Positions 12,719-62,553 of a stretch of 64,000 nt of DNA are shown here, piece after piece (position 1 is the first letter of the stretch; each line of letters opens with the position of its first letter). The stretch comes from Pseudomonas sp. MM223 (GTDB lineage: Bacteria; Pseudomonadota; Gammaproteobacteria; Pseudomonadales; Pseudomonadaceae), in contig OX352322.1 of the NCBI GenBank assembly GCA_947090765.1, positions 62,001 through 126,000 of the forward strand, given 5' to 3'. Made by a program: the position numbers and the translations under genes. The notes under the pieces were generated by a model that saw only the letters and a program-made list of their open reading frames with translations, had not been told where the DNA came from and did not search any database.

Positions 12719-13544
12719 ATGGACCAGTACGTCGTTTTTGGTAACCCCATCGGCCACAGCAAGTCGCCGCTGATTCACCGCCTGTTTGCCGAGCAGACCG
12801 GGCAGGACCTGGAATACGCCACACTGCTGGCGCCGCTGGACGAGTTCAGTGATTGCGCGCGGGGCTTCTTCAAGCAAGGCAGCGGCGGCAACGTCACCGT
12901 GCCATTCAAGGAAGAGGCCTACCGCCTGTGCGACAGCCTGACCGCGCGTGCCCAGCGCGCTGGCGCAGTGAACACGCTGAGCAAGCTGGCTGATGGCACC
13001 TTGCAAGGCGACAACACCGATGGTGCTGGCCTGGTGCGCGACCTGACGGTGAATGCCGGGGTCGAGCTTGCTGGCAAGCGCATTCTCATCCTGGGGGCCG
13101 GTGGCGCCGTGCGTGGCGTGCTGGAGCCGATCCTGGCGCACAAGCCGCAGTCGTTGGTGATTGCCAACCGGACGGTGGAAAAGGCCGAGCAGCTGGCGCG
13201 TGAGTTCGATGAGCCTGGGGCCGGTGGTGGCCAGCGGGTTTGCCTGGTTGCAGGAGCCGGTGGATGTGATCATCAATGCCACCTCGGCGAGCCTGGCCGG
13301 GGAAATGCCGCCGATTGCCGGTAGCCTGATCGAGGCGGGGCGTACGGTTTGCTACGACATGATGTATGGCAAAGAGCCTACGCCGTTTTGCCAATGGGCT
13401 ACTGACCTGGGCGCTGTAAAGGTGCTGGATGGGTTGGGGATGCTGGCTGAGCAGGCGGCTGAGGCCTTCTTTATCTGGCGTGGCGTTCGGCCTGATACCG
13501 CGCCAGTGTTGGCGGAGTTGCGCCGGCAATTGGCTCGGGGCTGA
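12719..13544 (+). pseudogene. aroE: Shikimate dehydrogenase, frameshifted by one inserted base
   Basis: AroE reduces 3-dehydroshikimate to shikimate with NADPH. The N-terminal part has the substrate site ([14 protein letters not shown]), [20 protein letters not shown] and the NADPH motif [14 protein letters not shown]. The C-terminal part ([38 protein letters not shown]) is in the next frame. One extra C within 13211-13217 (GAGCCTG where GAGCTG is expected) breaks the frame; removing it restores 274 intact residues. The start at 12719 has AAGGAG upstream. Both halves are otherwise well conserved, so I suspect a sequence error (see findings). Confidence 0.93.
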
Positions 13545-13550
13545 AATTGT

Positions 13551-13671
13551 CGGGGCCGCTTTGCGGCCCATTCGCGGCACAAGGCCGCTCCTACAACGAC
13601 CGCGCTATCCCGGCTAACGCGATCCCCTGTAGGAGCGGCCTTGTGCCGCGAAAGGGCTGCAAAGCAGCCCC
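13551..13671. repeat. REP inverted pair (aroE / sulP junction)
   Basis: Left copy 13551-13594 and right copy 13628-13671 of the TGTAGGAGCGG class, each with an outer GGGGCCGC/GCGGCCC-type hairpin. It fills the gap between two convergent genes. Confidence 0.9.
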
Positions 13672-13683
13672 AGAATCTCAGCG

Positions 13684-15249
13684 TCACTCCTCAAACCGGA
13701 TCGGGCACAACTCCACCCCTTCCAGCTTCTGCAATTCCTCGATCACCTGCGGCCTGGCCCGGTGCAAGGTCAAACTCCCGCCCAACCGCCGCAACCGCCG
13801 CGCCTCGCGGTGCAGCATATCCACACCCGAGTAATCGATAAAATTCACCTGTCGCGCATCGATCACCACATGCGGCCCTTGGCAGCGCTGTAGGCGCACC
13901 TGCAGGTAATGCGCCGCGCCAAAGAAAATCGACCCGCCCACCCGCAACACATCCGCGTCGCCTTCGCGGCTTTGCTGCACCCGTGGCCGTGAAGTGCGTT
14001 TCAAATAGAAGAACAGCGAAGCCAGCACGCCGGCATAAATTGCCGTTTGCAACTCCAGCAACAACGTCGCCGCCGCCGTCAGCGCCATCACCAGGAACTC
14101 CGAGCGGCTGACCCGAAACAGTGCGCGAATCCCCCGATGGTCCACCAACCCCCAGCAGATCAGCAGAATGCTGCCAGCCATGGCCGGTATCGGCAGGTGC
14201 GCGATCAGGCCGGCGCCGGTAACGGCAAACAACGCCACCCACAGCGCCGAGAAAACGCCGGCCATGGGCGAGCGGGCACCTGCCTCGTAACTCAAGCCCG
14301 AACGGGTGAAGGAACCGGCAGACAGGTAACCGGAGAAAAACGCACCGGCGATGTTCGACAGGCCCTGTGCACGTATTTCCTGGTCAGGGTCGATCAGCTG
14401 TTCCGAACGTGCCGACAACGAGCGGGCAATCGACAGGCTGGTGACCAGCCCGAGCATGCCCACCGCCACGGCGCTGGGCAGTAACCGTAACATCAGTTCC
14501 ACATCCAGCAATGGCAGTGGGCTGAAGGGCGGGAGTTGGCCGGTGAACGCGGCCACCCGTGGCACATGGCCAAAGTAGCCCGGCAGCAGCCATGCCAGCA
14601 GGCTGACCAGCATCAGGCTTATCAACAGGCTCGGCCAGCGTGGGCGCCAGAGCTTGAAGGCCACACCCATCACTACGGTGGCCAGGCCCAGAAGCAAGGA
14701 AGGCAAGTCGACCTCGCCGGCATGGCTGGCCAGGTCCTGAATGGTCTTCAGTGCCGTGGCCTGGCTGGGCAGGTCCATGCCCATCAGGTTGGGCAACTGG
14801 CCCAAGGCAATGACGATGGCAGCCCCCAGCGTGAAACCGAGTACCACGGAGTGGGAGACGAAGTTGACCAGCGCGCCAAAGCGCAAAAGCCCCAGCAGCA
14901 GCTGGAAGATGCCGCCGAGGAAGGTCAGCAGCAGCACCAGGGTGATGTAATCGGCGCTGCCGGCAACGGCCAGCGGACTGATGCTGGCGTACAGCACGAT
15001 GGAAATGGCGGCGGTCGGGCCGCAGATCAGGTGCCAGGACGAGCCCCACAGGCAGGCGATCAGCACTGGCACGATGGCAGCGTACAAGCCGTATTCGGCG
15101 GGCAGGCCGGCGATCAGGGCATAAGCGATGGATTGTGGCAGGGCGAGGATGGCACCGCTCAGGCCGACCAGCAGGTCCTGGCGCAGGCTGCGGCCCGATT
15201 GGCGGGGGAGCCAGGTGAGGAAGGGCAGCAGGTGGTTGAGACGGGACAT
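13684..15249 (-). CDS. SulP-family anion transporter with STAS domain (probable sulfate permease)
   Basis: Polytopic inner-membrane transporter of 521 residues. The N-terminal 400 residues carry the SulP signature region (QDLLVGLSGAILALPQSIAYALIAGLPAEYGLYAAIVP) and about 10-12 hydrophobic segments. The C-terminal STAS domain includes VVIDARQVNFIDYSGVDMLH near residue 455. It lies downstream of the choline-binding protein and choline sulfatase genes on the same strand, so it may carry the sulfate released from choline sulfate or import choline sulfate itself; this is inference. A REP pair sits between it and the binding-protein gene. Confidence 0.9.
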   Translation of the reverse strand: MSRLNHLLPFLTWLPRQSGRSLRQDLLVGLSGAILALPQSIAYALIAGLPAEYGLYAAIVPVLIACLWGSSWHLICGPTAAISIVLYASISPLAVAGSADYITLVLLLTFLGGIFQLLLGLLRFGALVNFVSHSVVLGFTLGAAIVIALGQLPNLMGMDLPSQATALKTIQDLASHAGEVDLPSLLLGLATVVMGVAFKLWRPRWPSLLISLMLVSLLAWLLPGYFGHVPRVAAFTGQLPPFSPLPLLDVELMLRLLPSAVAVGMLGLVTSLSIARSLSARSEQLIDPDQEIRAQGLSNIAGAFFSGYLSAGSFTRSGLSYEAGARSPMAGVFSALWVALFAVTGAGLIAHLPIPAMAGSILLICWGLVDHRGIRALFRVSRSEFLVMALTAAATLLLELQTAIYAGVLASLFFYLKRTSRPRVQQSREGDADVLRVGGSIFFGAAHYLQVRLQRCQGPHVVIDARQVNFIDYSGVDMLHREARRLRRLGGSLTLHRARPQVIEELQKLEGVELCPIRFEE

Positions 15250-15292
15250 TCAGTGTTCCTGTTCAGAATCGCTGGCGAGGGCGTTGCCCTCG

Positions 15293-15395
15293 TTTCGCGA
15301 CACAAGGCCGCTCCCACAGGGATTGTGCAAACCTTCAGGCCGACAGTGGACCTGTGGGAGCGGCCTTGTGTCGCGAAAGGGCCGCAAAGCGGCCC
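15293..15395. repeat. REP inverted pair between choX-like and sulP genes
   Basis: Left copy 15293-15319 (TTTCGCGACACAAGGCCGCTC...) and right copy 15351-15395 (GTGGGAGCGGCCTTGTGTCG... with a GGGCCGCAAAGCGGCCC tail). Unlike most pairs it lies between tandem genes, and may lower sulP expression relative to the upstream genes. Confidence 0.88.
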
Positions 15396-15416
15396 CGGCA
15401 GCCTAACAGACAAAAA

Positions 15417-16340
15417 TCAGAGTTTGGCCTTCACTGCCTGTGCTGCATCCCCGCCACTTTTTGTGGTCACCCCAGCCAACCACCCTTCCAGCAACTCGGG
15501 ATGCGTTTTCACCCAAGCCTTGGCCGCGTCATCAAAGCTGATCTTCTTGTCCACAACCTCGGCCATGATGCTGTTTTCCATGTCCAGTGTGAACTTAAGG
15601 TTACCCAACAGCTTCGCCGCGTTCGGGCAGGCTTGTGGATAACCCTTGCGGGTCAGCGTGTACACCTCGCCCTTGCTGCCGAACCACTTTTCCCCGCCAG
15701 TCAGGTAATGCATTTTCAGCTTCACGTTCATCGGGTGCGGGGTCCAGCCAAGGAAGGTGATGAACTGCTGCTTCTTTACCGCCCGGTCAACCTGGGCCAG
15801 CATCGCCTGCTCGCTGGACTCCACCAGCTTCCACTGGCCTAGGTTGAATTCATTCTTGTCGATGATGTCCTTCAGCGACAGGTTGGCCGGGGCGCCGGAG
15901 CCAATGCCATACAGCTTTTTGTCGAACTGGTCGGCGTGCTTCTGCAGGTCGGCAAAATCTTTCACCCCCGCATTCCATACATAGTCGGGCACTGCCAGGG
16001 TGAACTCGGTTCCCTCCAGGTTACGCGACAACTGTTGCACATCGCCGTTGGCGATGAACTTGTCATGGAAGCCTTGCTGCGCTGGCATCCAGTTGCCAAG
16101 GAACGCATCGACCCGTCCGTCCTTCAGGCCGCCGTAGATGATCGGCACGGCCAGGCTGTCGATTTTTACCTGGTAGCCCAGGCTTTCCAGTAACAGGCGG
16201 GCCACGGCATTGGTCGAGGCGATATCGCTCCAGCCGGGGTCGGCCATTTTTACGGTACTGCATTGCGCGTCGCTGTCGGCGGCGTGGGCCGTGGCGGTGC
16301 CCAGGGCCAGGGCGAACACGGCGGCGGAGAACTTGTGCAT
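15417..16340 (-). CDS. Choline/betaine-type ABC transporter substrate-binding protein (ChoX-like)
   Basis: Periplasmic binding protein of 307 residues with a signal peptide (MHKFSAAVFALALGTATAHA, cleavage after HA-A) followed by CSTVKMADPGWSDIASTNA, a start typical of choline-binding ChoX proteins of the OpuAC family. I chose the ATG at 16340; the upstream open frame lacks a signal peptide. It lies 14 bp downstream of the choline sulfatase gene, so the likely ligand is choline or choline-O-sulfate. No permease or ATPase gene is adjacent, so it must use a distant ABC complex. Confidence 0.87.
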   Translation of the reverse strand: MHKFSAAVFALALGTATAHAADSDAQCSTVKMADPGWSDIASTNAVARLLLESLGYQVKIDSLAVPIIYGGLKDGRVDAFLGNWMPAQQGFHDKFIANGDVQQLSRNLEGTEFTLAVPDYVWNAGVKDFADLQKHADQFDKKLYGIGSGAPANLSLKDIIDKNEFNLGQWKLVESSEQAMLAQVDRAVKKQQFITFLGWTPHPMNVKLKMHYLTGGEKWFGSKGEVYTLTRKGYPQACPNAAKLLGNLKFTLDMENSIMAEVVDKKISFDDAAKAWVKTHPELLEGWLAGVTTKSGGDAAQAVKAKL

Positions 16341-16354
16341 GGCGGCCTCTCTTC

Positions 16355-17872
16355 TCAATCCATGGGTGCGGGCTGTGGATAACGTGCCTTGCGCTCGAGG
16401 TCGTCGAGATCGATGTGGTTGCGCATGTACTGTTGGCTGGCGTCCACCAGCGGTTGGTGGTCCCAGCTTTTCAGCGTGCCGATGGCCAGCGCTTCGGCCA
16501 CCAGGCGGCGGCGCCGCTGGCTGGCCAGTACCTGCTGGCGCAGGCTGGGGATATCCCAACGTTGTTGTGCTTCATCGACAAATGCCTGCAGCAGCGCCTG
16601 GTGGTCCGGGCTGCCGGTGAGGTTCTCCCGCTCGTGCGGGTCGCGGCTCAGGTCATAGAGTAGACACGGGTCGTCTTCGCTGTACACGAACTTGTAAGGC
16701 CCGCGGCGGATCATCATCAGCGGGCCAACGGTGCCTTCGGCCATGTATTCGCCGATCACTTCATCATGGCCGCCCTGCCCTTGCAGATGGCCGAGCAGCG
16801 AGCGGCCGTCCAGGTGCAGGCTTTTATCCACAGCCCCGCCGGCCAGTTCGACGAGGGTCGGCAGCAGGTCGCAGGTCGAGACCGAGGCGCTTACCCGGCC
16901 TGCTGCGAAGCGCTTGGGCGCATGGACTAATAGCGGTACCCGCGCCGACATCTCGAACCAGTGCATTTTGTACCAGAGGCCACGCTCGCCCAGCATATCG
17001 CCGTGGTCGCCGGAGAAGATGATCAGGGTGTCGTCGGCCAGGTTGCACTCCTCCAGTGTTTGCAGCAGCTGGCCGATGTTGTCGTCGATATAGCTGCAAG
17101 CGCCAAAGTAAGCGCGGCGGGCATCGCGGATCTTGTCCACAGGCAGCGGCTTGTTCCACAGGTCGTAGACCTTCAGCAGTCTCTGTGAGTGCGGGTCGAG
17201 CTCCGACTGGCTGAACTCGGCGCGAGGCATGGGGATATCCACACCCTCGTAGCGGTCCCAGTAGCGTTTGGGGATGGTGTAGGGGTCGTGCGGGTGGGTC
17301 ATGGACACGGTCAGGCAGAACGGCCGGCCGTCATTTTCACGCACATGGTCGTACAGGTACTGGCGCGCCTTGAACACCACCTCTTCGTCGAAATCCAGCT
17401 GGTTGGTACGCACGCACGGCCCGGCCTGCAGTACCGAAGACATGTTGTGGTACCAGCTTGGGCGCACATCCGGTTCATCCCAGTTCACCGCCCAGCCATA
17501 GTCGGCGGGGTAGATGTCGCTGGTCAGGCGCTCTTCGTAGCCGTGCAACTGGTCCGGGCCGCAAAAGTGCATCTTGCCTGACAGCGCGGTGCGGTAGCCC
17601 AGGCGGCGCAGGTAGTGGGCATAGGTTGGTACATCGGCGGGGAAATCGGCGGCATTGTCGTAGGCGCCAATGCGGCTGGGCAGTTGGCCGCTGACCAGGG
17701 TGAAGCGTGACGGCGCGCACAGCGGGCTGTTGCAGTAGGCCGAATCGAACACAACTGCCTGCTCGGCCAGGCGTCTCAGGTGCGGCATTTGGATAGGCGA
17801 AGGGGCGTAGATCGGCAGCAAGGGTGCGGCCATCTGGTCGGCCATGATGAACAGGATATTCGGGCGCGTCAT
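16355..17872 (-). CDS. betC: Choline-sulfatase
   Basis: Hydrolyses choline-O-sulfate to choline and sulfate, yielding an osmoprotectant precursor plus sulfur. The 505 residues have the type I sulfatase motif CAPSR with Cys52 as the residue converted to formylglycine, N-terminal metal ligands (NILFIMADQ), FSGDHGDMLGERGLWYK near residue 300, and the C-terminal choline-sulfatase region ending in PQPAPMD. I chose the second ATG (17872), which has GGAAG 6 nt upstream; the first ATG at 17884 is possible. It is divergent from a LysR gene that probably regulates it. Confidence 0.94.
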   Translation of the reverse strand: MTRPNILFIMADQMAAPLLPIYAPSPIQMPHLRRLAEQAVVFDSAYCNSPLCAPSRFTLVSGQLPSRIGAYDNAADFPADVPTYAHYLRRLGYRTALSGKMHFCGPDQLHGYEERLTSDIYPADYGWAVNWDEPDVRPSWYHNMSSVLQAGPCVRTNQLDFDEEVVFKARQYLYDHVRENDGRPFCLTVSMTHPHDPYTIPKRYWDRYEGVDIPMPRAEFSQSELDPHSQRLLKVYDLWNKPLPVDKIRDARRAYFGACSYIDDNIGQLLQTLEECNLADDTLIIFSGDHGDMLGERGLWYKMHWFEMSARVPLLVHAPKRFAAGRVSASVSTCDLLPTLVELAGGAVDKSLHLDGRSLLGHLQGQGGHDEVIGEYMAEGTVGPLMMIRRGPYKFVYSEDDPCLLYDLSRDPHERENLTGSPDHQALLQAFVDEAQQRWDIPSLRQQVLASQRRRRLVAEALAIGTLKSWDHQPLVDASQQYMRNHIDLDDLERKARYPQPAPMD

Positions 17873-17980
17873 GGTGGCTTCCATCGTTTAGGGTTATGCG
17901 ATCCGCTTGCCTACCAAGATGCGACTGTGGATAACATGGGTAAAGCCCATGACGGGCAATGACTGGGATTAGCTGAACTT

Positions 17981-18880
17981 ATGTTTGAGCACCTTGCCGA
18001 GCTGTCGCTGGATACCTTGCGCGTTTTTGAAGCGGCAGCACGCCTGCGTGGCTTTACCGCTGCGGCGCTGGAACTGGGTACCACGCAGCCGGCTGTGAGC
18101 CAGCAGGTGAAGCGCCTGGAAGCCCAGCTTGGCACGCGGCTGTTTGACCGTATCTATCGGGGCATCGAGCTCACCGAGGCCGGCCAGTTGCTGTTCGAAC
18201 AGGTACATCAGGGCTTGCAAGCCATGGATGACGGCATTGCCCAGGCCAGCGGGCGCGGCCAGCGCGAAGTGCTGCAGGTGGCCACCGACTTTGCCTTTGC
18301 GGCGTTCTGGCTGATGCCAAGGCTGCAGCGCTTTCACGAGGCTTATCCACAGGTGGATGTGAGCCTGGTGACCGGTGAACGCAGCCAAGGCATGCTGCGC
18401 CCGGACATCGATGTGGCGGTGCTGTTTGGCGATGGGCGCTTTCACCAGGGTGAGAGCCGCTGGCTGTTCGATGAGGAAGTCTTCCCGGTGTGCAGCCCCC
18501 GGCTGACTGATGGCAAACCCTTGTCAGCTGTGGCTTTGCAACGATTGCCCCTGCTGCATTTGAAGGGCGAGCAGGCCAGCCGCTGGTTTGACTGGGCGGG
18601 GGTGTTTCGCGGATTTGGCGTGGTCAGCCCGCCGCCTGCGGGGCAGTTGCGCTTCGACAACTACACGTTGCTGATCCAGGCGGCGATTGCCGGCCAGGGC
18701 GTGGCTATCGGTTGGCGGCATCTTGTGGACGGCCTGGTGGAGCAAGGCTTGCTATGTCGGCCATTAGAGGGGAGCCTGACATCGAGTCGGGGCTATTATC
18801 TGGTTTTGCCACCGCGCAAGCGGCGCGGGGCGTTGATCGAGCGGTTCGTCAGCTGGCTGGAGCAGGAGCGCAGCGGCTGA
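17981..18880 (+). CDS. LysR-family regulator of choline sulfate utilisation (putative)
   Basis: Transcription factor of 299 residues. The N-terminal winged helix-turn-helix is clear (LDTLRVFEAAARLRGFTAAALELGTTQPAVSQQVKRLE), followed by a GcvA-like effector domain (ATDFAFAAFWLMPRLQRFHEAYP). It is divergent from betC across about 110 bp, the classic arrangement for a LysR regulator and its target, so betC and the downstream genes are the likely regulon. The gap also holds a perfect DnaA box (17926-17934). Confidence 0.9.
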   Translation: MFEHLAELSLDTLRVFEAAARLRGFTAAALELGTTQPAVSQQVKRLEAQLGTRLFDRIYRGIELTEAGQLLFEQVHQGLQAMDDGIAQASGRGQREVLQVATDFAFAAFWLMPRLQRFHEAYPQVDVSLVTGERSQGMLRPDIDVAVLFGDGRFHQGESRWLFDEEVFPVCSPRLTDGKPLSAVALQRLPLLHLKGEQASRWFDWAGVFRGFGVVSPPPAGQLRFDNYTLLIQAAIAGQGVAIGWRHLVDGLVEQGLLCRPLEGSLTSSRGYYLVLPPRKRRGALIERFVSWLEQERSG

Positions 18881-18903
18881 TGGCGGTGCAATTGGGAGTT
18901 ATC

Positions 18904-19237
18904 GTGCAAAGAATCAAGGGTTACCACGCCCATGTTTATTACGACGCAGCGTCCATGGAGCAGGCCAGGGAACTGTGCGAGGAAGCGGCGCGGCTGTTCC
19001 CCGTGACCATGGGGCGCATGCACCAAAAGCCGGTAGGGCCGCACCCGGACTGGAGCTCGCCAGCTGGCGTTCGAGCCAGAATTTGTCGGGGTGGTGTTGC
19101 CGTGGTTGGCGCTGTATCGGAAGGGGTTGGTGGTGTTCATGCACCCGCTGACCGGGGATGAACTGGCGGACCACCGGGACCATGCGATCTGGATGGGGGC
19201 TGTGCGGCCTTTGAAACTGTCGATTTTTGGTGGGTAG
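18904..19237 (+). pseudogene. DOPA 4,5-dioxygenase family protein, frameshifted by one inserted base
   Basis: Small vicinal-oxygen-chelate-like protein; the restored length is 110 residues. The first frame gives the family start (IKGYHAHVYYDAASMEQA) and RMHQKPVGPHPDWS; the next frame continues with the rest, including VGVVLPWLALYRKGLVVFMH and DHRDHAIWMG, ending in LKLSIFGG. One extra C within 19053-19059 (GAGCTCG where GAGCTG is expected) causes the break. The GTG at 18904 has GGGAG 6 nt upstream; an ATG at 18880 is in frame. Physiological substrate unknown. Confidence 0.85.
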
Positions 19238-19251
19238 ATTTGTATTGCCTG

Positions 19252-19345
19252 TGCCGGCCTCTTCGCGGCACAAGGCCGCTCCTACAAGGTGATCGCAATA
19301 CCCTGTAGGAGCGGCCTTGTGCCGCGAACGAGGGCGGAGCCCTCG
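19252..19345. repeat. REP inverted pair (DOPA-dioxygenase-like / trpA junction)
   Basis: Left copy about 19252-19287 and right copy 19303-19345 of the TGTAGGAGCGG class. It occupies the whole gap between two convergent genes. Confidence 0.9.
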
Positions 19346-19348
19346 CAA

Positions 19349-20157
19349 TCAATGGCGAGCCGAGCGCACCCCTTCAGCCAGTGCCGAGCACAGGCTCAAT
19401 ACGTCGGTCACTGCCTGATCGGCACTCTTGGCCTGGGCGATCTTGTCGACCAGCGCCGAGCCCACCACCACACCATCCGCCAGGCGGGCGATGTTCGCAG
19501 CTTGCTCCGGGGTACGAATGCCGAAACCAACGCTGATCGGCAGATCGGTATGCCGGCGCAGGCGGGCAATGGCTTCGGTCACGTGCTCGGTAGTCGCCGA
19601 GCCTGCACCGGTCACACCGGCCACCGACACGTAATAGACAAACCCGGGCTGCGCTCCAGCACACGCGGCAGGCGCGCATCGTCGGTGGTGGGGGTGGTCA
19701 GGCGGATGAAGTCGATGCCCGCAGCCTGGGCCGGGGTGGCCAGTTCGGCGTCGTGCTCGGGCGGCAGGTCGACGATGATCAGGCCATCGACACCGGCTTG
19801 CTTGGCTTCAGCCACGAACTTATCCACACCAAAGCGGTGGATCGGGTTGTAGTAGCCCATCAGCACGATGGGCGTAGTGTGGTTATCCACACGGAATTCG
19901 CGGACCATTTGCAGGGTCTTGGCCAAGGTCTGGCCAGCTTCCAGGGCACGCAGGGTGGCCAGCTGAATGGCCACGCCATCGGCCATCGGGTCGGTAAACG
20001 GCATGCCCAGTTCGATCACGTCGGCGCCAGCGGCTGGCAGGCCCTTGAGGATCTGCAGCGAGGCGTCGTAGCCCGGGTCGCCTGCGGTGACGAAGGTGAC
20101 CAGTGCCGAACGGCCTTCGGCCTTCAGTTCGGCGAAGCGTTGTTCAAGACGGCTCAT
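19349..20157 (-). pseudogene. trpA: Tryptophan synthase alpha subunit, frameshifted by one missing base
   Basis: TrpA cleaves indole-3-glycerol phosphate and channels indole to TrpB. The N-terminal frame runs [16 protein letters not shown] to RLPRVLERS and contains the catalytic regions [13 protein letters not shown] and [11 protein letters not shown]. The C-terminal frame continues with [16 protein letters not shown] and [13 protein letters not shown]. On the plus strand one base is missing within 19647-19651 (GGCTG where GAGCTG is expected); restoring it gives 269 residues with a serine at the break. Its ATG overlaps the trpB stop (ATGA). Both halves are fully conserved, so a sequence error is likely. 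Confidence 0.94.
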
Positions 20158-21371: not shown

Positions 21372-21481
21372 GGGGCGCTCCAGGGCGTAATGAATGAGTG
21401 ATGGGCTTTACTCTAACCACGGCAAGCCCGGCTGAAAACCGATAAGATTGCGCAAACTTGTCAGAAAAACTCACAGGTAAC
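21372..21481. promoter_or_regulatory. trpB-trpI divergent regulatory region
   Basis: A 110-bp gap between divergently transcribed trpB and trpI. In Pseudomonas the TrpI protein binds here to activate trpBA and control itself; the window keeps that geometry. I cannot assign exact operator boundaries by eye. Confidence 0.6.
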
Positions 21482-22698: not shown

Positions 22699-22764
22699 GT
22701 TGACTCTCCTTTGCAGTATGGGCTGTTAAAGGTTGCGACCTTGGGCCTGCGCGAAAGTGCGATC

Positions 22765-22792
22765 GAACTTTCACCTTTGCGGACGGCTCGCA
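22765..22792 (+). promoter_or_regulatory. Possible AlgU (sigma-22)-type promoter upstream of dodecin
   Basis: GAACTT (22765-22770), 17 bp, then TCGCA, a 3 of 5 match to the TCTGA -10 element. The -35 is perfect but the -10 is weak, so this is only a candidate. Confidence 0.35.
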
Positions 22793-22850
22793 GGTAAACC
22801 AGGCCTACGCTGCTAGGCTAAAAAATCACCGTTATCCAAGGAGCGTGAAC

Positions 22851-23569: not shown

Positions 23570-24575
23570 TCACTCGGTCTTGAGGGCCTGCGCCAGCAGT
23601 TCATAGGAGCGGATCCGGTCCGCATGCTCATACAGGTCGCAGGTAAAGATCAGGCTCGTCCGCCCCGGTCTGCTCCAGCAGCACCTCCACCTTGGCCCTT
23701 ACCTTCTGCGGGCTGCCGATCATCGCCAGGCCCAGGAAGCTGCCCACGGCATCCCGCTCATGGGGCAACCACAGCCCATCCATGCTTTCTACCGGCGGCT
23801 TCTGCATCAGGCTCTGGCCGCGAATCAGCGCCAGAATGCGCTGGTACACCGAGGTTGCCAGGTATTCGGCCTTTTCGTCGGTTTCTGCCACCACCATGGG
23901 GATGCCCAGCATCACATACGGCTTGTCCAGCGTGGTCGAGGGCTTGAAATGATTGCGGTAAACGCGGATCGCCTCGTGCATGTAACGCGGCGCAAAGTGC
24001 GAGGCGAAGGCGTAGGGCATACCGCGCATGCCCGCCAGCTGGGCGCTGAACAGGCTGGAGCCGAGTAGCCACATCGGCACGTCAGTGTCGTGCCCCGGCA
24101 CGGCGATCACTTTTTGATCATCGGTGCGTGGGCCGAGGTAGCGCGACAGTTCCTCGACATCGTCCGGGAAATCGTCCGGGCCACCCGCGCGGTCGCGGCG
24201 CAGGGCGTAGGCGGTCATCTGGTCCGAACCCGGCGCACGGCCCAGCCCCAGGTCGATACGCCCCGGGTACAGGCTGGCCAGGGTGCCGAACTGCTCGGCG
24301 ATCACCAGCGGCGCGTGGTTGGGCAACATCACGCCACCCGAGCCCACGCGAATAGTGGAAGTACCCCCGGCCAGATAACCGATCAGCACCGACGTTGCCG
24401 AACTGGCGATGCCGTCCATGTTGTGGTGCTCGGCCACCCAGAAGCGGTTGTAGCCAAAGCGCTCGACGTGTTGCGCCAGGTCCAGCGAGTTGCGCAGCGA
24501 CTGCGCAGGGCCTGCGTCGGCGCGCACGGGTACCAGGTCGAGGGTGGATATTTTCAGGTCACGCAGCTGCGTCAT
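23570..24575 (-). pseudogene. Luciferase-like monooxygenase, frameshifted near the C-terminus
   Basis: Flavin-dependent bacterial-luciferase-like oxidoreductase of the MsnO8/YhbW-like group: [17 protein letters not shown] near residue 45, [15 protein letters not shown] near 77, [15 protein letters not shown] near 105. One extra base within 23651-23657 (minus strand GAGCCTG where GAGCTG is expected) shifts the frame after EQTGADE; without it the protein continues [20 protein letters not shown] to a stop at 23570, 334 residues in all, as the family expects. Substrate unknown. Divergent from the osmC-like gene. Confidence 0.88.
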
Positions 24576-25462: not shown

Positions 25463-25474
25463 ATTCAGCACTTT

Positions 25475-28448: not shown

Positions 28449-28998
28449 TCATTCCGGTTGGTCGTAGCCTTCGGCCAAATGCTGGTCCTTGAGCTTCACG
28501 TAGTTGCCGGCGCTGTAGGAGAAGAACGCGCGCTCTTTGTCGTTCAGCAGCCGGGCCTGTTTCACCGGGCTGCCCATGTACAGGTAACCGCTGACCAAGC
28601 GCTTGCCCGGCGGTACCAGGCTGCCGGCACCGATGATCACTTCGTCTTCGACGATGGCGCCATCCATGATGGTGCTGCCCATGCCGACGAGGATGCGGTT
28701 GCCCAGGGTGCAGCCGTGCAGCATCACCTTGTGGCCGATGGTCACCTCGTCACCGATGATCAGCGGGAAACCGTCCGGGTTGAACGGGCCGGCGTGGGTG
28801 ATGTGCAGCACGCTGGCGTCCTGCACGCTGGTGCGCGCACCGATGCGGATGCGGTGCATGTCGCCGCGCACCACGGTCAGCGGCCAGATCGAGCTCGTCT
28901 TCACCGATCTCCACGTCGCCCAGCACCACTGCCGAACGGTCGACGAAGGCACGCAGTCCAACTTTCGGAGTGTGTTGCTGGAAGCTTCGGATGGCCAT
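28449..28998 (-). pseudogene. Gamma-class carbonic anhydrase family protein, frameshifted by one inserted base
   Basis: Left-handed beta-helix protein of the YrdA/PaaY/CaiE type, restored length 182 residues. The N-terminal frame gives MAIRSFQQHTPKVG and FVDRSAVVLGDVEIGED; the other frame gives the hexapeptide-repeat body IWPLTVVRGDMHRIRIG, the histidine block VLHITHAGPFNPDG and IGHKVMLHGCTLGN with zinc-ligand-like histidines. One extra C within 28891-28897 (GAGCTCG where GAGCTG is expected on the plus strand) separates them. Enzymatic activity of this branch is often weak or unproven. Divergent from prlC. Confidence 0.9.
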
Positions 28999-29100
28999 GA
29001 TAGCGTCTCTCATCTGTGCCGATAGGCAGGCTGCCTGCTGCGGTCGGCGTCGATTGTAATTAAGATGGGGCAGTGTTTCTTCTGCCAAGGTATCCAAACC

Positions 29101-54329: not shown

Positions 54330-54349
54330 GGGCAGCGACGGTTCTGGAT

Positions 54350-54372
54350 GGAGACGTTATTATGTTACCTGT
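54350..54372. promoter_or_regulatory. Candidate Zur operator between zur and znuA
   Basis: GTTATTATGTTACC lies in the AT-rich centre of the 66-bp zur/znuA gap and resembles a Zur box half-site (GTTAT) followed by a degenerate second half. It is the only AT-rich block here, but the dyad is poor, so confidence is low. Confidence 0.35.
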
Positions 54373-54395
54373 TTCTGACGACTCGAGTATCCACC

Positions 54396-55304: not shown

Positions 55305-55320
55305 AACGCCCCACGGTCCT

Positions 55321-55438
55321 TGTAGGAGCGGCCTTGCGCCGCGAAAGGGCCGCAAAGCGGCCCCGGCGATACTCGCTGCGAAGCTGAGATCTCGGGGCCG
55401 CTTTGCGGCCCTTTCGCGGCACAAGGTCGCTCCTACAA
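55321..55438. repeat. REP inverted pair, outward orientation (znuA / thrB junction)
   Basis: Copies 55321-55364 and 55394-55438. TGTAGGAG ends point outward, GC hairpins inward. Lies between convergent genes. Confidence 0.9.
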
Positions 55439-55457
55439 AGAGCAATTAGCGTGGGAA

Positions 55458-56408
55458 TCAGAGGGCGAACGGCAAGTGCAAAGCCACTTGCTGGCGCTGG
55501 GCCAGGCGCACTTCGAACTCGCTCGGGTCGTGGATCATCACATCCATCCCGGCAAACGATTCGGCCGCGATCAGGCGCGACAGCCAGAAACGCACGCAAC
55601 CTACCCGCAACATTTCCGGCCACAGTTCAGCTTCGGCCGCAGTGAACGGCCGCAGCGCCGCATAGGCCGCCAGCAGTGCCTGGGCACGTGGCACATCCAC
55701 TGCGCCCTGCTCATCCAGGCACCAGTCGTTCACGGTGATGGCGATGTCATACAGCATCGGCCCGGAGCAGGCGTTGTAGAAGTCGATCACACCGGTCAGG
55801 TGGGTACCTTCGAACATCACGTTGTCGCGGAACAGGTCGGCATGCAGGTTGGCCCGTGGCAAGGCCAGGATCTGTGCCTTGTGCGCGGTAATTTCATCCA
55901 GCGCCGGTTGCAGCAGCGCGGCTTGCTCGGCAGTCAGGCGCGGCAGCAGCTCGGCACCGGAGGCCAGCATCCAGTCCAGACCGCGGTCGGTCTTGCGCTC
56001 GATGATGTGCTCGCGGGTGGCCAGGTGAATGTGTGCCAGCAGCTCGCCAACCTGGGCGCAGTGCTGGTTGTTCGGCGCCTTGATGTGCTTGCCCGACAGC
56101 CGTGGCTGCAGCAGCGCCGGCTTGCCGCACAACTCGCGCAGGCCATTGCCGTCGCGGTCACGAAGGGCATAGGGCACCGGCATGTCGGCGGCGTGCAGGG
56201 TGTCGAGCAGTTCGATGAAGAACGGCATGTCCTCGCTAGGCCCGCGCTCGATCAACGTCAGGACGAACTCCCCCTGTTCGAGGCTGACGAAGAAATTGCT
56301 GTTCTCGGTGCCGGCGGCAATGCCCTGGAAGTCGAGCAGACGGCCCAGCTCGTACGGCGCCAGAAAGGTTTCCAGCTCAGGCCGGGTCACGGGGGTGAAG
56401 ACTGACAT
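55458..56408 (-). CDS. thrB: Homoserine kinase (ThrB, aminoglycoside phosphotransferase-like fold)
   Basis: Phosphorylates homoserine for threonine synthesis. 316 residues of the APH-fold ThrB type found in pseudomonads: MSVFTPVTRPELETFLAPYELG start, NSNFFVSLEQGEFVLTLIER near residue 37, and the catalytic loop ANLHADLFRDNVMFEGTHLTGVIDFYNAC near 195. Follows the DUF2782 gene on the same strand, as in P. aeruginosa. Confidence 0.95.
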   Translation of the reverse strand: MSVFTPVTRPELETFLAPYELGRLLDFQGIAAGTENSNFFVSLEQGEFVLTLIERGPSEDMPFFIELLDTLHAADMPVPYALRDRDGNGLRELCGKPALLQPRLSGKHIKAPNNQHCAQVGELLAHIHLATREHIIERKTDRGLDWMLASGAELLPRLTAEQAALLQPALDEITAHKAQILALPRANLHADLFRDNVMFEGTHLTGVIDFYNACSGPMLYDIAITVNDWCLDEQGAVDVPRAQALLAAYAALRPFTAAEAELWPEMLRVGCVRFWLSRLIAAESFAGMDVMIHDPSEFEVRLAQRQQVALHLPFAL

Positions 56409-56428
56409 GATGAAAAATTGCCCATACG

Positions 56429-56450
56429 GGCACTTCCGCCGGGAAGTGCC
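56429..56450 (-). other. Hairpin in the DUF2782-thrB gap
   Basis: GGCACTTCC/GGAAGTGCC, a 9-bp perfect stem with loop GCCG, lies 21 bp before the thrB start. On the thrB strand an alternative GCCC-GTAT-GGGC hairpin followed by AATTTTT overlaps it, so the two structures could be mutually exclusive, as in an attenuator. No regulator is known. Confidence 0.4.
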
Positions 56451-56477
56451 GGGTTGATGTGAACGGTGCGCGTCAGA

Positions 56478-56765
56478 TTACCACTCGAAGATCTTCCAGG
56501 ACGGAATCAGCATGTCCGGCTGGTCGGATCGAATGAAATTGGCATCAGTGCCATCAGCGCGTACCAGAAAATAAGGCTTGCCGTTTTTCGGCGTGATCTT
56601 GATCGCATACAGGAACCCGTTCTGCCGGTACTCCTGGATGGTTTTGTCGCCTTCCGTGCGAATGGTCACCTCGGGATCGGCCGAGGGGGCGTCGTCCGCC
56701 GCCAGGGTGACGACTGGCGTGGTTGCCAACAGGCCGAGCAGTAACAGGCGATTGAGTGTACGCAT
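56478..56765 (-). CDS. DUF2782 periplasmic protein
   Basis: 95 residues with a signal peptide ([22 protein letters not shown]) and a compact mature domain: [39 protein letters not shown], ending [13 protein letters not shown]. Function unknown. Lies upstream of thrB and divergent from polA, a conserved Pseudomonas arrangement. Confidence 0.88.
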
Positions 56766-56840
56766 GATAACCTAGTCCCTTTGTCGTCAATGATTCTGGC
56801 TATTCTAGCGCCGGACCCGTCGAAAAGGTTGATTCTGCTC

Positions 56841-59587
56841 ATGAGCCAAGCCCCCCTCGTCCTGGTGGACGGTTCCTCCTACCTGTACCGCGCCTTCCAC
56901 GCGCTGCCGCCGTTGACCACGTCCAAGGGCATGCCGACCGGTGCGGTGAAGGGTGTGCTGAACATGCTCAAGAGCCTGCGCAAACAGTACCCCGACAGCT
57001 TGTTCGCGGTGGTGTTCGACGCCAAGGGCGGCACGTTCCGCGATGCCATGTTCGCCGAGTACAAGGCCAACCGCCCAAGCATGCCTGACGACCTGCGGGT
57101 ACAGGTCGAGCCGCTGCATGCCAGCGTAAGGGCGCTGGGCTACCCGCTGCTGTGCGTCGAGGGTGTGGAGGCCGACGACGTCATCGGCACCCTGGCGCGC
57201 AGCGCAGCCGCCCAGGGCCGCCCGGTAATCATCTCGACCGGTGACAAGGACATGGCTCAGCTGGTGGACGGGCACATTACCTTGGTCAACACCATGACCG
57301 GAAGCGTACTGGACGTGGCTGGCGTGCATGAGAAATTTGGCGTCGGCCCGGAACACATCATCGACTTCCTGGCCCTGATGGGCGACAAGGTCGACAACAT
57401 TCCCGGCGTGCCGGGCGTGGGCGAAAAAACCGCCGTGGGCCTGCTAACCGGTATCGGCGGCGGCCTGAGCGATTTGTATGCGAATCTGGACAAGGTCCCG
57501 GCGTTGGCCATTCGTGGCGCCAAGACCTTGCCGGCCAAGCTTGAAGAACACCGCGACGCGGCGTTCCTGTCCTACGAGCTGGCCACCATCAAGGTCGATG
57601 TACCGCTGGACGTCGAAGTGGATGCGCTGGTGTGTGGTGAACCTGACCGCGAAGCGCTGCAGGCGCTGTACACCGAGATGGAGTTCAAGAGCTGGGTTGC
57701 CGAGGTGCAGCGCGACGCCGCAAGGGCTGGTACCGAGGTTGCACCGGTTGAAGCGCCGGCTGCCAAGGTTGAGCCGCAGTACGAAACCATTCTGGACCAG
57801 GCCCGTTTCGATGCATGGCTTGAAAAACTGCGCCAGGCGCCGCTGTTCGCCTTCGATACCGAAACAACCGGCCTGGATGCCCAGAAGGCGCAGCTGGTTG
57901 GCCTGTCCTTCGCTGTTGCGCCCCATGAGGCGGCTTATGTGCCGTTGGCTCATGACTATGAGGGCGCACCGGCCCAACTGGACCGCGACGCCGTATTGCT
58001 GGCCCTGAAACCGCTGTTGGAAGACCCGGCCAAGGCCAAGGTCGGGCAAAACGCCAAGTACGACATCAACATCCTTGCCAATGGCTCGCCCGCCATCGAA
58101 ATGCGTGGCGTGGCCTACGACACCATGCTCGAGTCGTACGTGCTGAATTCCACCGCCACCCGTCACGACATGGACAGCCTGGCGCAGAAGTACCTTGACC
58201 ACACCACCATTGCCTTCGAGGACATCGCCGGCAAGGGCGCCAAGCAACTGACCTTCAACCAGATCCACCTGGACAAGGCCGGCCCTTACGCTGCCGAAGA
58301 CGCCGACATCACCCTACGCCTGCACCAGGCATTGCAAGCGCGCCTGGCACAGACGCCGAGCGTGCAACCGGTGCTGATGAACATCGAAATGCCGCTTGTG
58401 CCGGTGCTGGCCAAGATCGAACGCCAGGGTGCGCTGGTCGATGCCGACCTGCTGCACGTACAAAGCGGTGAGCTGGGCGTGAAGATGGCCGAGCTGGGCT
58501 GCGTGCCTACGAGCTGGCCGGTGAGGAATTCAACCTCGGTTCGCCCAAGCAGCTGGGCGCGATCCTATACGACAAGCTGGGCATGCCGGTGCTGAGCAAG
58601 ACCGCCAAGGGCCAGCCCTCCACCGCAGAAGCCGTACTCGATGAACTGGCCTTGCTCGGCTATCCACTGCCTGAGGTACTGATGCAGTACCGCAGCCTGA
58701 GCAAGCTCAAGAGCACTTACACCGACAAACTGCCGGGCCAGATCAACCCACGCACCGGGCGTATCCACACCTCCTATCAGCAGGCAGTGGCGGCTACCGG
58801 CCGGCTGTCGTCGAGCGACCCGAACCTGCAGAACATCCCGATCCGTACCGCCGAAGGCCGGCGTATCCGCCAGGCGTTCATTGCCAGCCCGGGTTACAAA
58901 CTGCTGGCGGCGGACTACTCGCAGATCGAGCTGCGCATCATGGCCCACCTGGCCAAGGACGAAGGCCTGCTGCACGCCTTCCGCAACGACCTGGACGTGC
59001 ACCGGGCCACGGCAGCGGAAGTGTTCGGTGTGGCCCTGGAAGACGTCACCACCGACCAGCGGCGCAAGGCCAAAGCCATCAACTTCGGCCTGATCTATGG
59101 CATGAGCGCCTTTGGCCTGGCCAAGCAGATCGGTGTCGACCGCAAGCAGTCGCAGGACTACATCGACCGGTACTTCGCCCGCTACCCAGGCGTGCTGGCC
59201 TACATGGAGCGCACCCGCGCGCAGGCGGCCGAGCAAGGCTTTGTCGAAACCCTGTTTGGCCGCCGCCTGTACCTGCCAGACATCAACGCCAAGAACCCGG
59301 CCCTGCGCAAAGGCGCCGAGCGTACGGCGATCAACGCGCCGATGCAGGGCACTGCGGCCGACATCATCAAGCGGGCCATGGTCAATGTGGATAACTGGCT
59401 GAGCGAGAGCGGGCTGGATGCCCGGGTGATCCTGCAGGTACACGACGAACTGGTACTTGAGGTGCGTGAGGACCTGGTTCAGCAGGTGAAAGATGAAATT
59501 CGCCAGCACATGAGCAAGGCTGCGGAACTGGATGTGCCGCTGCTGGTGGAGGCAGGAATTGGCGCGAATTGGGACGAAGCTCACTGA
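56841..59587 (+). pseudogene. polA: DNA polymerase I, frameshifted by one missing base
   Basis: Replicative-repair polymerase; restored length 915 residues. The first frame holds the 5'-3' nuclease ([35 protein letters not shown]) and the 3'-5' exonuclease domain ([13 protein letters not shown], then NAKYDINIL). The second holds the polymerase ([60 protein letters not shown]). One base is missing within 58497-58501 (GGCTG where GAGCTG is expected), in the junction [15 protein letters not shown]. All catalytic motifs are intact, so a sequence error is most likely. Confidence 0.95.
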
Positions 59588-59588
59588 T

Positions 59589-59647
59589 TGAGCAGGGAAA
59601 GCTGTGTAGGATCTGCGACGTAGTGACGCAGATCCTGGCACTGCTCA
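59589..59647. other. Bipartite hairpin after polA
   Basis: An outer 7-bp arm TGAGCAG/CTGCTCA (59589-59595, 59641-59647) encloses a 10-bp perfect stem AGGATCTGCG/CGCAGATCCT (59608-59617, 59627-59636). No T-run follows, so it is not an ordinary intrinsic terminator. It may protect the polA transcript end or act as a bidirectional element. Confidence 0.6.
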
Positions 59648-59702
59648 GTGCCGTTGGTACTGAAGTTTCATGAAACTATCGCAAATAGTTTTCAGGGCTT
59701 CG

Positions 59703-59730
59703 GAACTAAACCGGTGAAGCGGAACTCAGA
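59703..59730 (+). promoter_or_regulatory. AlgU (sigma-22)-type promoter for the ErsA-like sRNA
   Basis: GAACTA (59703-59708), 17 bp, TCAGA (59726-59730): one mismatch each to GAACTT and TCTGA. P. aeruginosa ersA is reported to be AlgU-dependent, matching this position. Confidence 0.65.
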
Positions 59731-59736
59731 GTAACT

Positions 59737-59866
59737 GAATGGCTGGTGAAGCCCTTCGATGCTCCTATGTTGTGTTAAGTGTTGGCAGATATCTGGACCC
59801 CGCCCTAGCGGTCCGGACTTGGACCCCGAACTTCCCCCTCCCCATACGAAGTCCGGGGTTTTTTTT
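59737..59866 (+). ncRNA. ersA: ErsA-like small regulatory RNA (Spot 42 locus position)
   Basis: The polA-engB gap holds the spf (Spot 42) gene in enterics and ersA in Pseudomonas. From a start about 7 nt after the AlgU-type -10 to the terminator U-run is about 130 nt, close to the 132 nt reported for P. aeruginosa ErsA. The 3' end is a strong intrinsic terminator. ErsA is an Hfq-binding envelope-stress sRNA affecting porin and exopolysaccharide genes; that function is by analogy. Confidence 0.75.
59823..59866 (+). terminator. Intrinsic terminator of the sRNA
   Basis: ACCCCGAACTTC / GAAGTCCGGGGT stem (one internal mismatch) with a pyrimidine loop, followed by eight T residues (59859-59866). 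Confidence 0.9.
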
Positions 59867-59896
59867 GCCCGGAATTTGGCTCGACCGTACTGGCCT

Positions 59897-59979
59897 CATC
59901 GCCGGCAAGCCAGCCCCACAGGGGTATCACTTCCCTTGAGGCCTGTGTTGAACCTGTGGGGCTGGCTTGCCGGCGATAG
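59897..59979. repeat. REP inverted pair, class GTGGGGCTGGCTTGCC (sRNA / engB junction)
   Basis: ATCGCCGGCAAGCCAGCCCC at 59897-59922 inverted at 59954-59979 (GTGGGGCTGGCTTGCCGGCG). A variant of the second REP class. Lies between polA/sRNA and convergent engB. Confidence 0.9.
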
Positions 59980-59984
59980 GGCCC

Positions 59985-60617
59985 TCAAACAGCTGGCTTG
60001 TCTTCCAGCTCCATCCAGCCCGCCAGCACCCGGTAGGCGTCTTCTACGCCCAGGCGCTTGGGTGCCGAGAACAGCTGGATGGTCACGCCATCACCCCAGC
60101 CCTTGCGGATTTCCGACTGCACTTTCAGCAGCGTGTTCTTGCCCGCGCCGTGGGTCAGCTTGTCGGCCTTGGTCAGCAGGATGTGCATGGGCATGCGGCT
60201 TGCCTTGGCCCAGTCGAGCATCATCTTGTCGAAGTCGGTCATCGGGTGGCGCACGTCCATCATCAGGATCACGCCGCGCAGGCACTCACGGCTGCCCAGG
60301 TAGGCTTCCAGGTGTTTCTGCCAGTGCTGCTTGAGCGGGATCGGCACTTTTGCATAACCGTAGCCCGGCAGGTCGACCAAACGCCGTTCATCGTCCAGAC
60401 TGAAGAAATTCAGCAGCTGGGTGCGCCCGGGGGTTTTCGAGGTACGCGCCAGGCTGGCATGGGTCAGGGTGTTGAGGGCGCTGGATTTGCCGGCGTTTGA
60501 GCGGCCGGCAAAAGCCACCTCGTAACCCTGGTCTTCCGGACATTGTTCGACCTTGGCAGCGCTGAGGGCGAATGTGGCTTTCTGGCAGAGGCCGAGGATG
60601 GGGTTCTTGACTTGCAT
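59985..60617 (-). CDS. engB: Ribosome biogenesis GTP-binding protein EngB (YihA)
   Basis: 210-residue essential GTPase. G1 [12 protein letters not shown] near residue 38, G2-region [12 protein letters not shown]3 [10 protein letters not shown] near 85, G4 LTKADKL near 150, and [16 protein letters not shown] chose ATG 60617 ([14 protein letters not shown]); the longer frame upstream is not conserved. Divergent from the small cytochrome c gene. Confidence 0.95.
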
Positions 60618-60818
60618 GGGATATCCGATGTGGGTGTTGCCTGACTCTAAAGGCCCGAGCCTGGCAAGCGGTGTCGTTTCCGTTTGGATGGCGGAAGTAT
60701 ATAATGCCCCAGTTTTTGTGTGCTCATTCTCCCAGCGAAGGGGAACGGGCATGGGGTGTCGAACAATAGCTCGCGCATCAGAACGCAGCGCGGCCCCCAA
60801 CCCTGAAGGTCGTTCCGC

Positions 60819-61121
60819 ATGGCGAAATGGCTGCTTGCTGTCGGTATGTTCCTGCCGGTTTTCAGCGCACAGGCTACACAGGATCCCGAGGTGTTGTACA
60901 ACCGCACGTGTGCGGCCTGTCACACCGGGCAGTTGCCACAGGCACCCAGACAGGGTGACCGGGCAGCATGGGAGCCAAGGCTGGCGCAAGGCATGGATGT
61001 ACTGGTGAAGCACGTGACCCAGGGTTTCAAGGCTATGCCGCCGCGTGGATTGTGCATGGACTGCAGTGCCGAGGACTACCGTTTGGTCATCCTTTGGATG
61101 AGCGGCAGTCCCGATACATAA
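60819..61121 (+). CDS. Small cytochrome c5-type protein
   Basis: 100-residue monoheme cytochrome. Signal peptide [19 protein letters not shown], heme motif CAACH (Cys31, Cys34, His35) and a probable axial methionine in [13 protein letters not shown]. The extra CMDC cysteines match cytochrome c5. Periplasmic electron carrier. Followed by cytochrome c4, as usual in Pseudomonas. Confidence 0.92.
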
Positions 61122-61152
61122 CATTTCACCCTTAGCCGTGTTGGATTAGCTG

Positions 61153-61770
61153 ATGAACAAACTAGTCGTGAGTCTGCTGTTGACCCTGGGTGTCGCAGGT
61201 GCGGCCACTGCTGCGCAAACTGTAAAAGGCGATGCCGCCGCCGGTCAGGCCAAGACGGCCGTCTGTGGCGCCTGCCACAGCCCCGACGGCAATAGCCTGG
61301 CACCGAACTTCCCTAAATTGGCCGGCCAGGGCCAGCGTTACCTCGAAAAACAACTGCACGATATCAAGTCGGGCAAGCGCACGGTGCTGGAGATGACCGG
61401 CATGCTGGCCGCGTTCAGCGACCAGGACCTGGCCGACATCGCCGCCTACTTCTCCAGCCAGAAAGGCAGCGTGGGCGCCGCCGATCCAAAGCTGGTCGAG
61501 CGTGGCAAAGCGCTGTTCAACGGCGGCGACCTGGAAAAAGGCATGCCTGCCTGCACCGGCTGCCACTCGCCCAACGGCGCAGGCATCGCTTTGGCCGGCT
61601 TCCCGCACCTGGGCGGCCAGCACTCGCAGTACGTGACCAAGCAGCTCACGGACTTCCGCGAAGGCAACCGCACCAACGATGGCGATGCCATGACCATGCG
61701 CACCATTGCCGGCAAGCTGAGCAACCACGACATCGAGGCGTTGGCCAGCTATATCCAGGGCCTGCATTAA
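61153..61770 (+). CDS. Diheme cytochrome c4
   Basis: 205 residues: a signal peptide (MNKLVVSLLLTLGVAGAATAA) and two homologous cytochrome domains, heme motifs CGACH (Cys38, Cys41, His42) and CTGCH (Cys134, Cys137, His138), with axial methionines in EMTGMLAAF and DAMTMRTIAG. Membrane-associated electron donor, probably to the cbb3 or caa3 oxidase. Followed by an intrinsic terminator. Confidence 0.95.
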   Translation: MNKLVVSLLLTLGVAGAATAAQTVKGDAAAGQAKTAVCGACHSPDGNSLAPNFPKLAGQGQRYLEKQLHDIKSGKRTVLEMTGMLAAFSDQDLADIAAYFSSQKGSVGAADPKLVERGKALFNGGDLEKGMPACTGCHSPNGAGIALAGFPHLGGQHSQYVTKQLTDFREGNRTNDGDAMTMRTIAGKLSNHDIEALASYIQGLH

Positions 61771-61801
61771 CTTTCAGTTAATGTTGTAGGCCAATGATGA
61801 A

Positions 61802-61826
61802 AGGGCGGCCGGGCCGCCCTTTTTTC
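61802..61826 (+). terminator. Intrinsic terminator after cytochrome c4
   Basis: AAGGGCGGC-CGG-GCCGCCCTT with a following T-run (TTTTTT), about 30 bp after the stop codon. Confidence 0.9.
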
Positions 61827-61921
61827 AGTCCGCAGCCGTTACACTACAGAACTCGACCCCTTCCCGGCCTGTCTCAGTGCAGGTCGCGTCGTGGCGACCA
61901 ATGACTGCTCAGGAGTAAAGC

Positions 61922-62553
61922 ATGCGTAAACTGATTCTCAGCGCCGCGCTGGTCGCTGCCAGCGTATTCGGTATGACTGCCGTCCAGGCCGCCGAGCCTG
62001 TTGCTGGCAAGGAATACCTCGAGCGAGCAACCCTGTTCCGGTGTCCGTACCTGGCAAGATCGAAGTGGTCGAGCTGTTCTGGTACGGCTGTCCACACTGC
62101 TACCACTTCGAGCCGACCATCAACCCTTGGGCTGAAAAGCTGCCGGCTGACGTCAACTTCAAACGTGTTCCTGCCATGTTCGGTGGCCCATGGGACGCAC
62201 ACGGCCAGATGTTCCTGACCCTCGAAGCCATGGGCGTCGAGCACAAGGTGCACGCCGCGGTGTTCGACGCCATCCAGAACCAGCACAAGCGCCTGACCGA
62301 CCCACAGGACATGGCAGACTTCCTCGCCACCCAGGGTGTGGACAAGGACAAGTTCCTTGCCACGTTCAACTCGTTCGCCATCAAGGGCCAGGTCACCCAG
62401 GCCAAGGAACTGGCGAAGAAGTACGAAATCACCGGCGTACCGAGCATGGTGGTCAACGGCAAGTACCGCTTCGACCTGGGTACCGCTGGCGGGCCGGAAG
62501 GCGTACTGAACGTCGCCGACCAGCTGATCGCCAAGGAGCGCGCCGCCAAGTAG
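61922..62553 (+). pseudogene. dsbA: Thiol:disulfide interchange protein DsbA, frameshifted by one missing base
   Basis: Periplasmic oxidant that introduces disulfides. Restored length 210 residues. The first frame has the signal peptide (MRKLILSAALVAASVFGMTAVQA) and AEPVAGKEYLE; the second has VPGKIEVVELFWYGCPHCYHFEP with the catalytic CPHC and the cis-proline region ITGVPSMVVNGKYRF. One T is missing within 62021-62025 (GAGCG where GAGCTG is expected). The active-site region is intact, so a sequence error is likely. Confidence 0.94.

Follow-up and report, generated by a model that had tools for sequence, protein, structure and literature searches.

Why should seven genes within a single stretch of a bacterial chromosome each be interrupted by one inserted or deleted base, every time inside the same hexamer? 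The question is raised by a 64,000-nucleotide stretch of the genome of Pseudomonas sp. MM223 (contig OX352322.1, here C1, C1:62001-126000; hereafter the window), in which seven single-base frameshifts at GAGCTG or its complement CAGCTC had been noticed and ascribed to base-calling at a methylated motif. In this study, we report that insertions and deletions (indels) at GAGCTG recur far beyond the window, and that they are in all probability errors of the consensus sequence, most likely arising where a GAGCTG-specific DNA modification disturbs long-read base-calling.

The genome of MM223 comprises 6.73 Mb in two contigs. Over the polA region its closest genomes, among 269 scored (129 more were unscored), were G227 and G275, the latter taken as P. 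putida W15Oct28, both at 95% identity. The one-contig genome G227, about 95% identical over that region, was used as the main reference and was aligned to MM223 in three stretches of 400, 400 and 280 kb (1.08 Mb), of which 0.93 Mb was mapped. A mapped G227 GAGCTG was counted as broken when MM223 had one or two bases inserted or deleted there; for the control the roles were swapped, sites being taken from MM223 and indels counted in G227. The coding class consisted of G227 open reading frames (ORFs; 688 in total) whose mismatches fall mainly at third codon positions. The unscored class probably includes real genes as well, among them those of a 55-kb stretch at 98.6% identity, which holds too few mismatches for scoring.

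All seven of the frameshifts noticed earlier proved to be 1-bp indels relative to G227, located at GAGCTG/CAGCTC and visible in the letters of the window, and an eighth was found in dprA. The sites are as follows.

8729..8734, plus strand, dprA-like gene (match from 7659): GGGCTG in place of the GGAGCTG of G227 and W15Oct28
13211..13217, plus strand, aroE: GAGCCTG, where G227 and W15Oct28 read GAGCTG; frame split 13219/13215
19053..19059, plus strand, DOPA 4,5-dioxygenase-like gene: GAGCTCG, where W15Oct28 reads GAGCTG and G227 GAGTTG
19646..19651, minus strand, trpA (20229-19355): plus-strand GGGCTG in place of the GGAGCTG of G227 and W15Oct28
23651..23657, minus strand, luciferase-like monooxygenase gene (25205-23576): CAGGCTC, where G227 and W15Oct28 read CAGCTC
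28891..28897, plus strand, conserved gene (28603-29056): GAGCTCG, where G227 and W15Oct28 read GAGCTG
58496..58501, plus strand, putative polA (56781-59584): GGGCTG, where G227 reads GGAGCTG; an intact GAGCTG stands immediately before
62021..62025, plus strand, DsbA-like gene (61922-62550): GAGCG, where G227 and W15Oct28 read GAGCTG

Restoring GAGCTG had been noted to give intact frames, and G227 indeed reads GAGCTG at these sites except in the DOPA-dioxygenase-like gene, for which W15Oct28 supplies it. The intact copy beside the broken one in polA was likewise found, immediately before 58496. When the intact G227 orthologues were searched by tblastn, two frames met at the site in aroE, the DOPA-dioxygenase-like gene, trpA, the luciferase-like gene, the gene at 28891, polA and the dsbA-like gene, and in dprA the match ended 18 residues short of the protein end. 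With W15Oct28 as the reference, 8/148 mapped sites were broken, namely six of the seven noticed earlier (polA is unlisted), dprA and one outside the window. The remaining frame-changing indels in the window, which holds 58 scored genes, are clustered or compensating (11724/11733/11756, 49142/49145 and 49881/49890); the first cluster is a net +1 close to the start of one ORF. The hexamer also occurs intact in the window, in 48 + 34 copies. Profile matches confirmed the aroE, trpA, DsbA-like, luciferase-like and DOPA-dioxygenase-like labels. The proposal that the gene at 28891 encodes a gamma carbonic anhydrase was left unconfirmed, Pfam at 1e-5 giving no match for the 151-residue G227 ORF.

Is the hexamer a coincidence of one region? 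The suggestion that frameshifts tabulated over a wider region would single out this hexamer was borne out over the 1.08 Mb, in which 80/1305 mapped GAGCTG sites (6.1%) were broken in MM223, at similar counts in each stretch (31/467, 23/444 and 26/394). Isolated 1-bp indels were present at 71/1305 sites, compared with 1/1141 when the roles were swapped (p=4.8e-72), which ranked GAGCTG first of 2080 hexamers. Its 18 one-mismatch neighbours were broken at 64/14688 sites (odds ratio for GAGCTG versus neighbours 15, p=3e-49), and in W15Oct28 against G227 a single site of 150 was broken, itself a compound difference. That ordinary pseudogenes or programmed frameshifts should share the hexamer by chance is thus scarcely credible: the broken frames fit such an origin and nothing further does, against a p of 5e-72 among 2080 hexamers, the presence of struck sites in unscored or intergenic DNA and in ribosomal RNA (rRNA) genes, and the lack of another frame-changing indel in 36 of the 42 struck genes that were listed individually.

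The hexamers ranked next, apart from those overlapping GAGCTG, were A/T homopolymers, which appeared in both directions, and GCCCGC (16/1571 vs 0/1434), whose excess is attributed to putative intergenic repeats. With the roles swapped, the scan was headed by GAGCCT (30/403), AGCCTG, GGGCTG and GAGCTC (11/118), which are the MM223 error forms viewed from the other side, together with CACAAG (18/405) and GCACAA, which we think are repeats. A shorter or degenerate motif was rejected, since GAGCTC (2/119), CAGCTG (2/799), AAGCTG (2/1057), GAGCTT (1/378) and GAGCTA (0/120) were spared. The highest rates among the neighbours were those of GGGCTG (16/1097), GAGCGG (10/677) and GAACTG (9/955), and some of these broken sites are probably GAGCTG in the true MM223 sequence. 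A bias of strand or replication was also rejected: sites in the leading sense were broken at 47/688 versus 33/617 (p=0.30), and an excess in the first stretch (21/225 vs 10/242) vanished. An exact, non-palindromic hexamer of this kind is the hallmark of an enzyme with sequence specificity.

What form do the errors take? Among the 80 broken sites, the A was lost in 29, GAGCCTG was read in 20, GAGCTCG in 9 and GAGGCTG in 5, the T was lost in 6, and 11 were of other types. A looser count, made without flank conditions, gave 42 indels of -1 and 41 of +1, with one each of +2, +3 and -3. The base 5' of the motif affected the break rate, which was 35/303 after G, 16/254 after T, 7/141 after A and 22/607 after C, and 23 of the 29 losses of A followed a 5' G; this dependence would be the context effect expected of signal misreading. 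Given the 7417 intact GAGCTG copies in the genome and the 6.1% failure, about 480 broken sites are estimated for the whole genome.

The same dependence on the 5' neighbour (35/303 after G vs 22/607 after C) also suits the simpler idea that sequence context alone is at fault, a base-caller or polisher failing on the GAGCTG k-mer of unmodified DNA, as do indels that come without a clear excess of substitutions. We regard this idea as improbable, though it is the most serious competitor of a modification. GAGCTG is common, with its 7417 intact copies, and variants one letter away are mostly spared; the same motif in G227, which may have been sequenced on another platform, failed at 1/1141 sites; and if base-callers in general were at fault in this way, the fault would be expected to be known already.

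Could the indels instead be real? Restriction at GAGCTG of the cell's own DNA, followed by error-prone end joining, would produce motif-specific indels with +1 and -1 nearly equal, as observed, and an island of PLD/Snf2 helicase, methyltransferase and ATPase genes described below does exist. The behaviour of the sites in coding DNA speaks otherwise. Ordinary indels, as measured at the neighbour hexamers, were 9-fold rarer in scored coding DNA (25/12553) than elsewhere (39/2135), whereas GAGCTG indels were 2-fold rarer (61/1122 vs 19/183); they have passed through selection almost unfiltered. Of the 450 scored genes of two stretches, 44 were struck, and the genes struck include several that a cell should not lose, namely a parB-family gene, mnmE, rsmG, gshA, the EF-G gene, surA, polA and a glmS-like gene, the last labelled by our own reading of its sequence. 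A second copy of the EF-G gene may exist. At one hexamer position of the 23S gene, the three rRNA operons read GAGCTG, GAGCCG and GAGC-G; of these, GAGCCG may reflect natural variation. In-vivo damage would require some 480 fixed lesions genome-wide by the above estimate, with weak filtering in coding DNA, almost no larger deletions and one 23S copy altered, and its probability is accordingly judged to be very small. A real mutagen is very unlikely because the glmS-like, parB-family, EF-G and 23S sites were struck, in line with the low standing that the original prediction had given to a motif-directed mutagen, and no such mutagen is needed. As a separate observation, the 16S-23S spacers of the three rRNA operons (L148, L196 and L197) come in two forms, distinguished by two additional short blocks in one of them.

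Several observations weigh against a modification-driven error. Failure is seen in just 6% of the sites. With the roles swapped, the looser count also returned seven indels, of which five were of 1 bp. The break rate was somewhat higher outside scored genes (19/183 vs 61/1122, p=0.018), a difference that is due partly to natural intergenic indels and to 5'-base composition. CAGCTC in the 16S gene was intact in the three copies found, which says little at a failure of 6%. GAGCTG was lost by substitution at 375 sites in MM223 and 283 in G227, the control CAGCTG being similar (255 vs 195), and the GAGTTG, AAGCTG and CAGCTG classes reached nominal p values of 0.04-0.05, uncorrected. No substitution class was clearly in excess at GAGCTG in MM223, where the errors are 1-bp indels; the GAGCGG class ran in the opposite direction (9 vs 33, p=0.0003) and is put down to putative intergenic repeat variation. 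This leads to the last point, for the modification-mediated errors of two published cases take another form. In Oxford Nanopore assemblies of Listeria, in the passages of PMC10687267 that deal with them, such errors lie at the strain-specific motifs GCAGC and GCTGG and, as in MM223, are confined to one motif, in strains that differ in defence and methyltransferase content from high-quality strains; they are mismatches at another motif, unlike the 1-bp indels of MM223. In Klebsiella and other species, methylation-induced ambiguous positions at RACG/CGTY, as set out in the relevant part of PMC11610573, are likewise motif-bound consensus errors for which methylation was inferred and for which the authors knew of no fitting motif; there the result is purine/pyrimidine ambiguity, unlike the indels at GAGCTG. 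Both cases are precedents for motif-bound errors from modification in long-read bacterial assemblies, and compared with them the indels of MM223 are unusual.

The original reading of a methylated motif thus stands as to hexamer specificity, recurrence in three stretches, restriction to MM223 as opposed to its relatives, and the presence of candidate enzymes, and departs from the two published cases in that the errors are not mismatches. Both the modification as the cause and the long-read platform are inferred here. Under this reading, a strain-specific DNA methyltransferase would modify the non-palindromic GAGCTG/CAGCTC, the modified base would disturb long-read base-calling, and about 6% of the sites would end one base too long or too short in the assembly. 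The asymmetric site would fit either an enzyme acting on one strand or a two-domain enzyme acting on both strands.

Which enzyme might be responsible? An inventory covering PF07669, PF01555, PF02384 and the C5 families supported the expectation that a methyltransferase gene would be present. The genome profile scans yielded one Eco57I-family enzyme (PF07669; candidate A), one protein with two PF01555 domains (candidate B) and three C5 methyltransferase loci (L188, L189 and L190; five matches, C1 near 4277425, 3577679 and 4430285). The PF02384 genome scan gave no match, in a scan that is not exhaustive, since candidate A matches PF02384 weakly in hmmscan. The enzyme sought would be candidate A, as an Eco57I-type N6-adenine methyltransferase, or the double-domain candidate B; a C5 or undetected enzyme is possible.

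Candidate A (C1:350893-354792, minus strand) is a protein of 1299 residues with PF07669 and the TaqI-like specificity domain PF12950 above cut-off and an NPPY motif at residue 792; it matches adenine families and not PF00145. Across ten aligned relatives the core is conserved, and in some of them the sequence from about residue 795 onwards has been exchanged. The Eco57I domain, NPPY motif, TaqI-like specificity domain and exchangeable specificity region are shared with Type IIG, PglX and DrmMI-like enzymes (PADLOC REase_MTase_IIG). Compared with Type IIG enzymes, candidate A shows no endonuclease domain above the Pfam cut-off in the same chain, and it is encoded with two separate neighbours, one on each side: a PLD + Snf2 helicase of 1109 residues, which carries an HKD motif, and a 558-residue SMC/RecF-like ATPase. 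Its similarity to PglX is far below the NCBIfam cut-offs. Helicase, candidate A and ATPase lie together in a low-G+C island (C1:349220-358111; L157:9220-18111). The island has 52% G+C, and its blastn matches to G227 at 1e-50 did not exceed 200 columns.

Adjacent helicase, methyltransferase and ATPase genes are also a feature of Hma and of systems related to bacteriophage exclusion (BREX), and for Type-2 BR an HKD motif is described at the N-terminus of the helicase, where the island has one too, in the sections of PMC8565338 and PMC12839542 on these arrangements (the HKD motif in PMC12839542). The island differs from them in that its ATPase is SMC/RecF-like by Pfam, with DUF499 not seen, and no DUF3780 gene was seen among the scanned proteins. 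HmaB is described as a 5-methylcytosine enzyme in the part of PMC8565338 concerned, a feature absent from the Eco57I-type adenine candidate A. The helicase scored 91 bits with the HmaA profile and best, at 426, with C3a139 HKD+Snf2; HmaB and HmaC were not among the 25 best profiles for the other two island proteins, and neither PglZ nor BrxC was among the matches listed for the seven proteins scanned (the best 25 where there were more). The island is probably a defence system without clear classification. BrxX of BREX is described, in the pertinent portion of PMC12839542, as a one-strand enzyme on non-palindromic sites.

Candidate B (C1:5937892-5941806, plus strand; 1304 residues) contains two DPPF modules and matches PADLOC MTase_II PDLC03312 at 2864 bits. 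It is located near YqaJ, RadC and DUF932 genes in a mobile-element-like setting (C1:5933000-5953000; L198, L199). Its relatives in two other records (P0137 and P0139) are forms of 821 residues that are 98-99% identical, the one in P0137 without the first 483 residues.

Each search for the two large enzymes covered 398 genomes including MM223, with no more than two scored candidates listed for any genome, and neither was matched at 1e-60 in the 397 other sampled Pseudomonas genomes. Candidate A had three partial matches among 390 genomes of the order (MM223 included), none extending beyond residue 890, that is, into the specificity region, and plasmid relatives were less than 60% identical. Relatives in protein databases came without assemblies, and an assignment through relatives was set aside. 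In enzymes of the Eco57I, MmeI and PglX types the modified base is usually an A at hexamer position 5; GAGCTG/CAGCTC has no A there, which counts against candidate A. We consider A and B about equally likely to be responsible, with a slight preference for B because of this usual position.

Neither GAGCTG nor CAGCTC was found as a methylation motif in the open-access literature searched, REBASE being outside that search. A phenomenon of a kind already known is here extended to a new motif, and the choice between the two uncharacterised methyltransferases can be put to the test. More tentatively, and with the balance of probability against it, A or B may place an uncommon or both-strand modification on GAGCTG/CAGCTC that gives indels and not mismatches, which would make it the first enzyme assigned to this specificity within the open-access literature searched. 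In practical terms, about one in ten scored genes looks broken in the assembly and is very probably intact, and pseudogene counts, pathway reconstructions and core-gene typing made from the MM223 assembly would be wrong. The pattern also suggests that a modification motif may be recognised from assembly errors alone, with no need of raw reads, and such a scan of public genomes could find new methyltransferase specificities.

Two RNA features were identified in the window in addition. A match to the C4 antisense RNA (RF01695, 62 bits), a family known from phage P1/P7-like elements, lies at 10092-10181 (plus strand), and the small RNA ErsA (Pseudomon-1; RF01719, 144 bits) lies at 59759-59874 (plus strand), directly downstream of polA.

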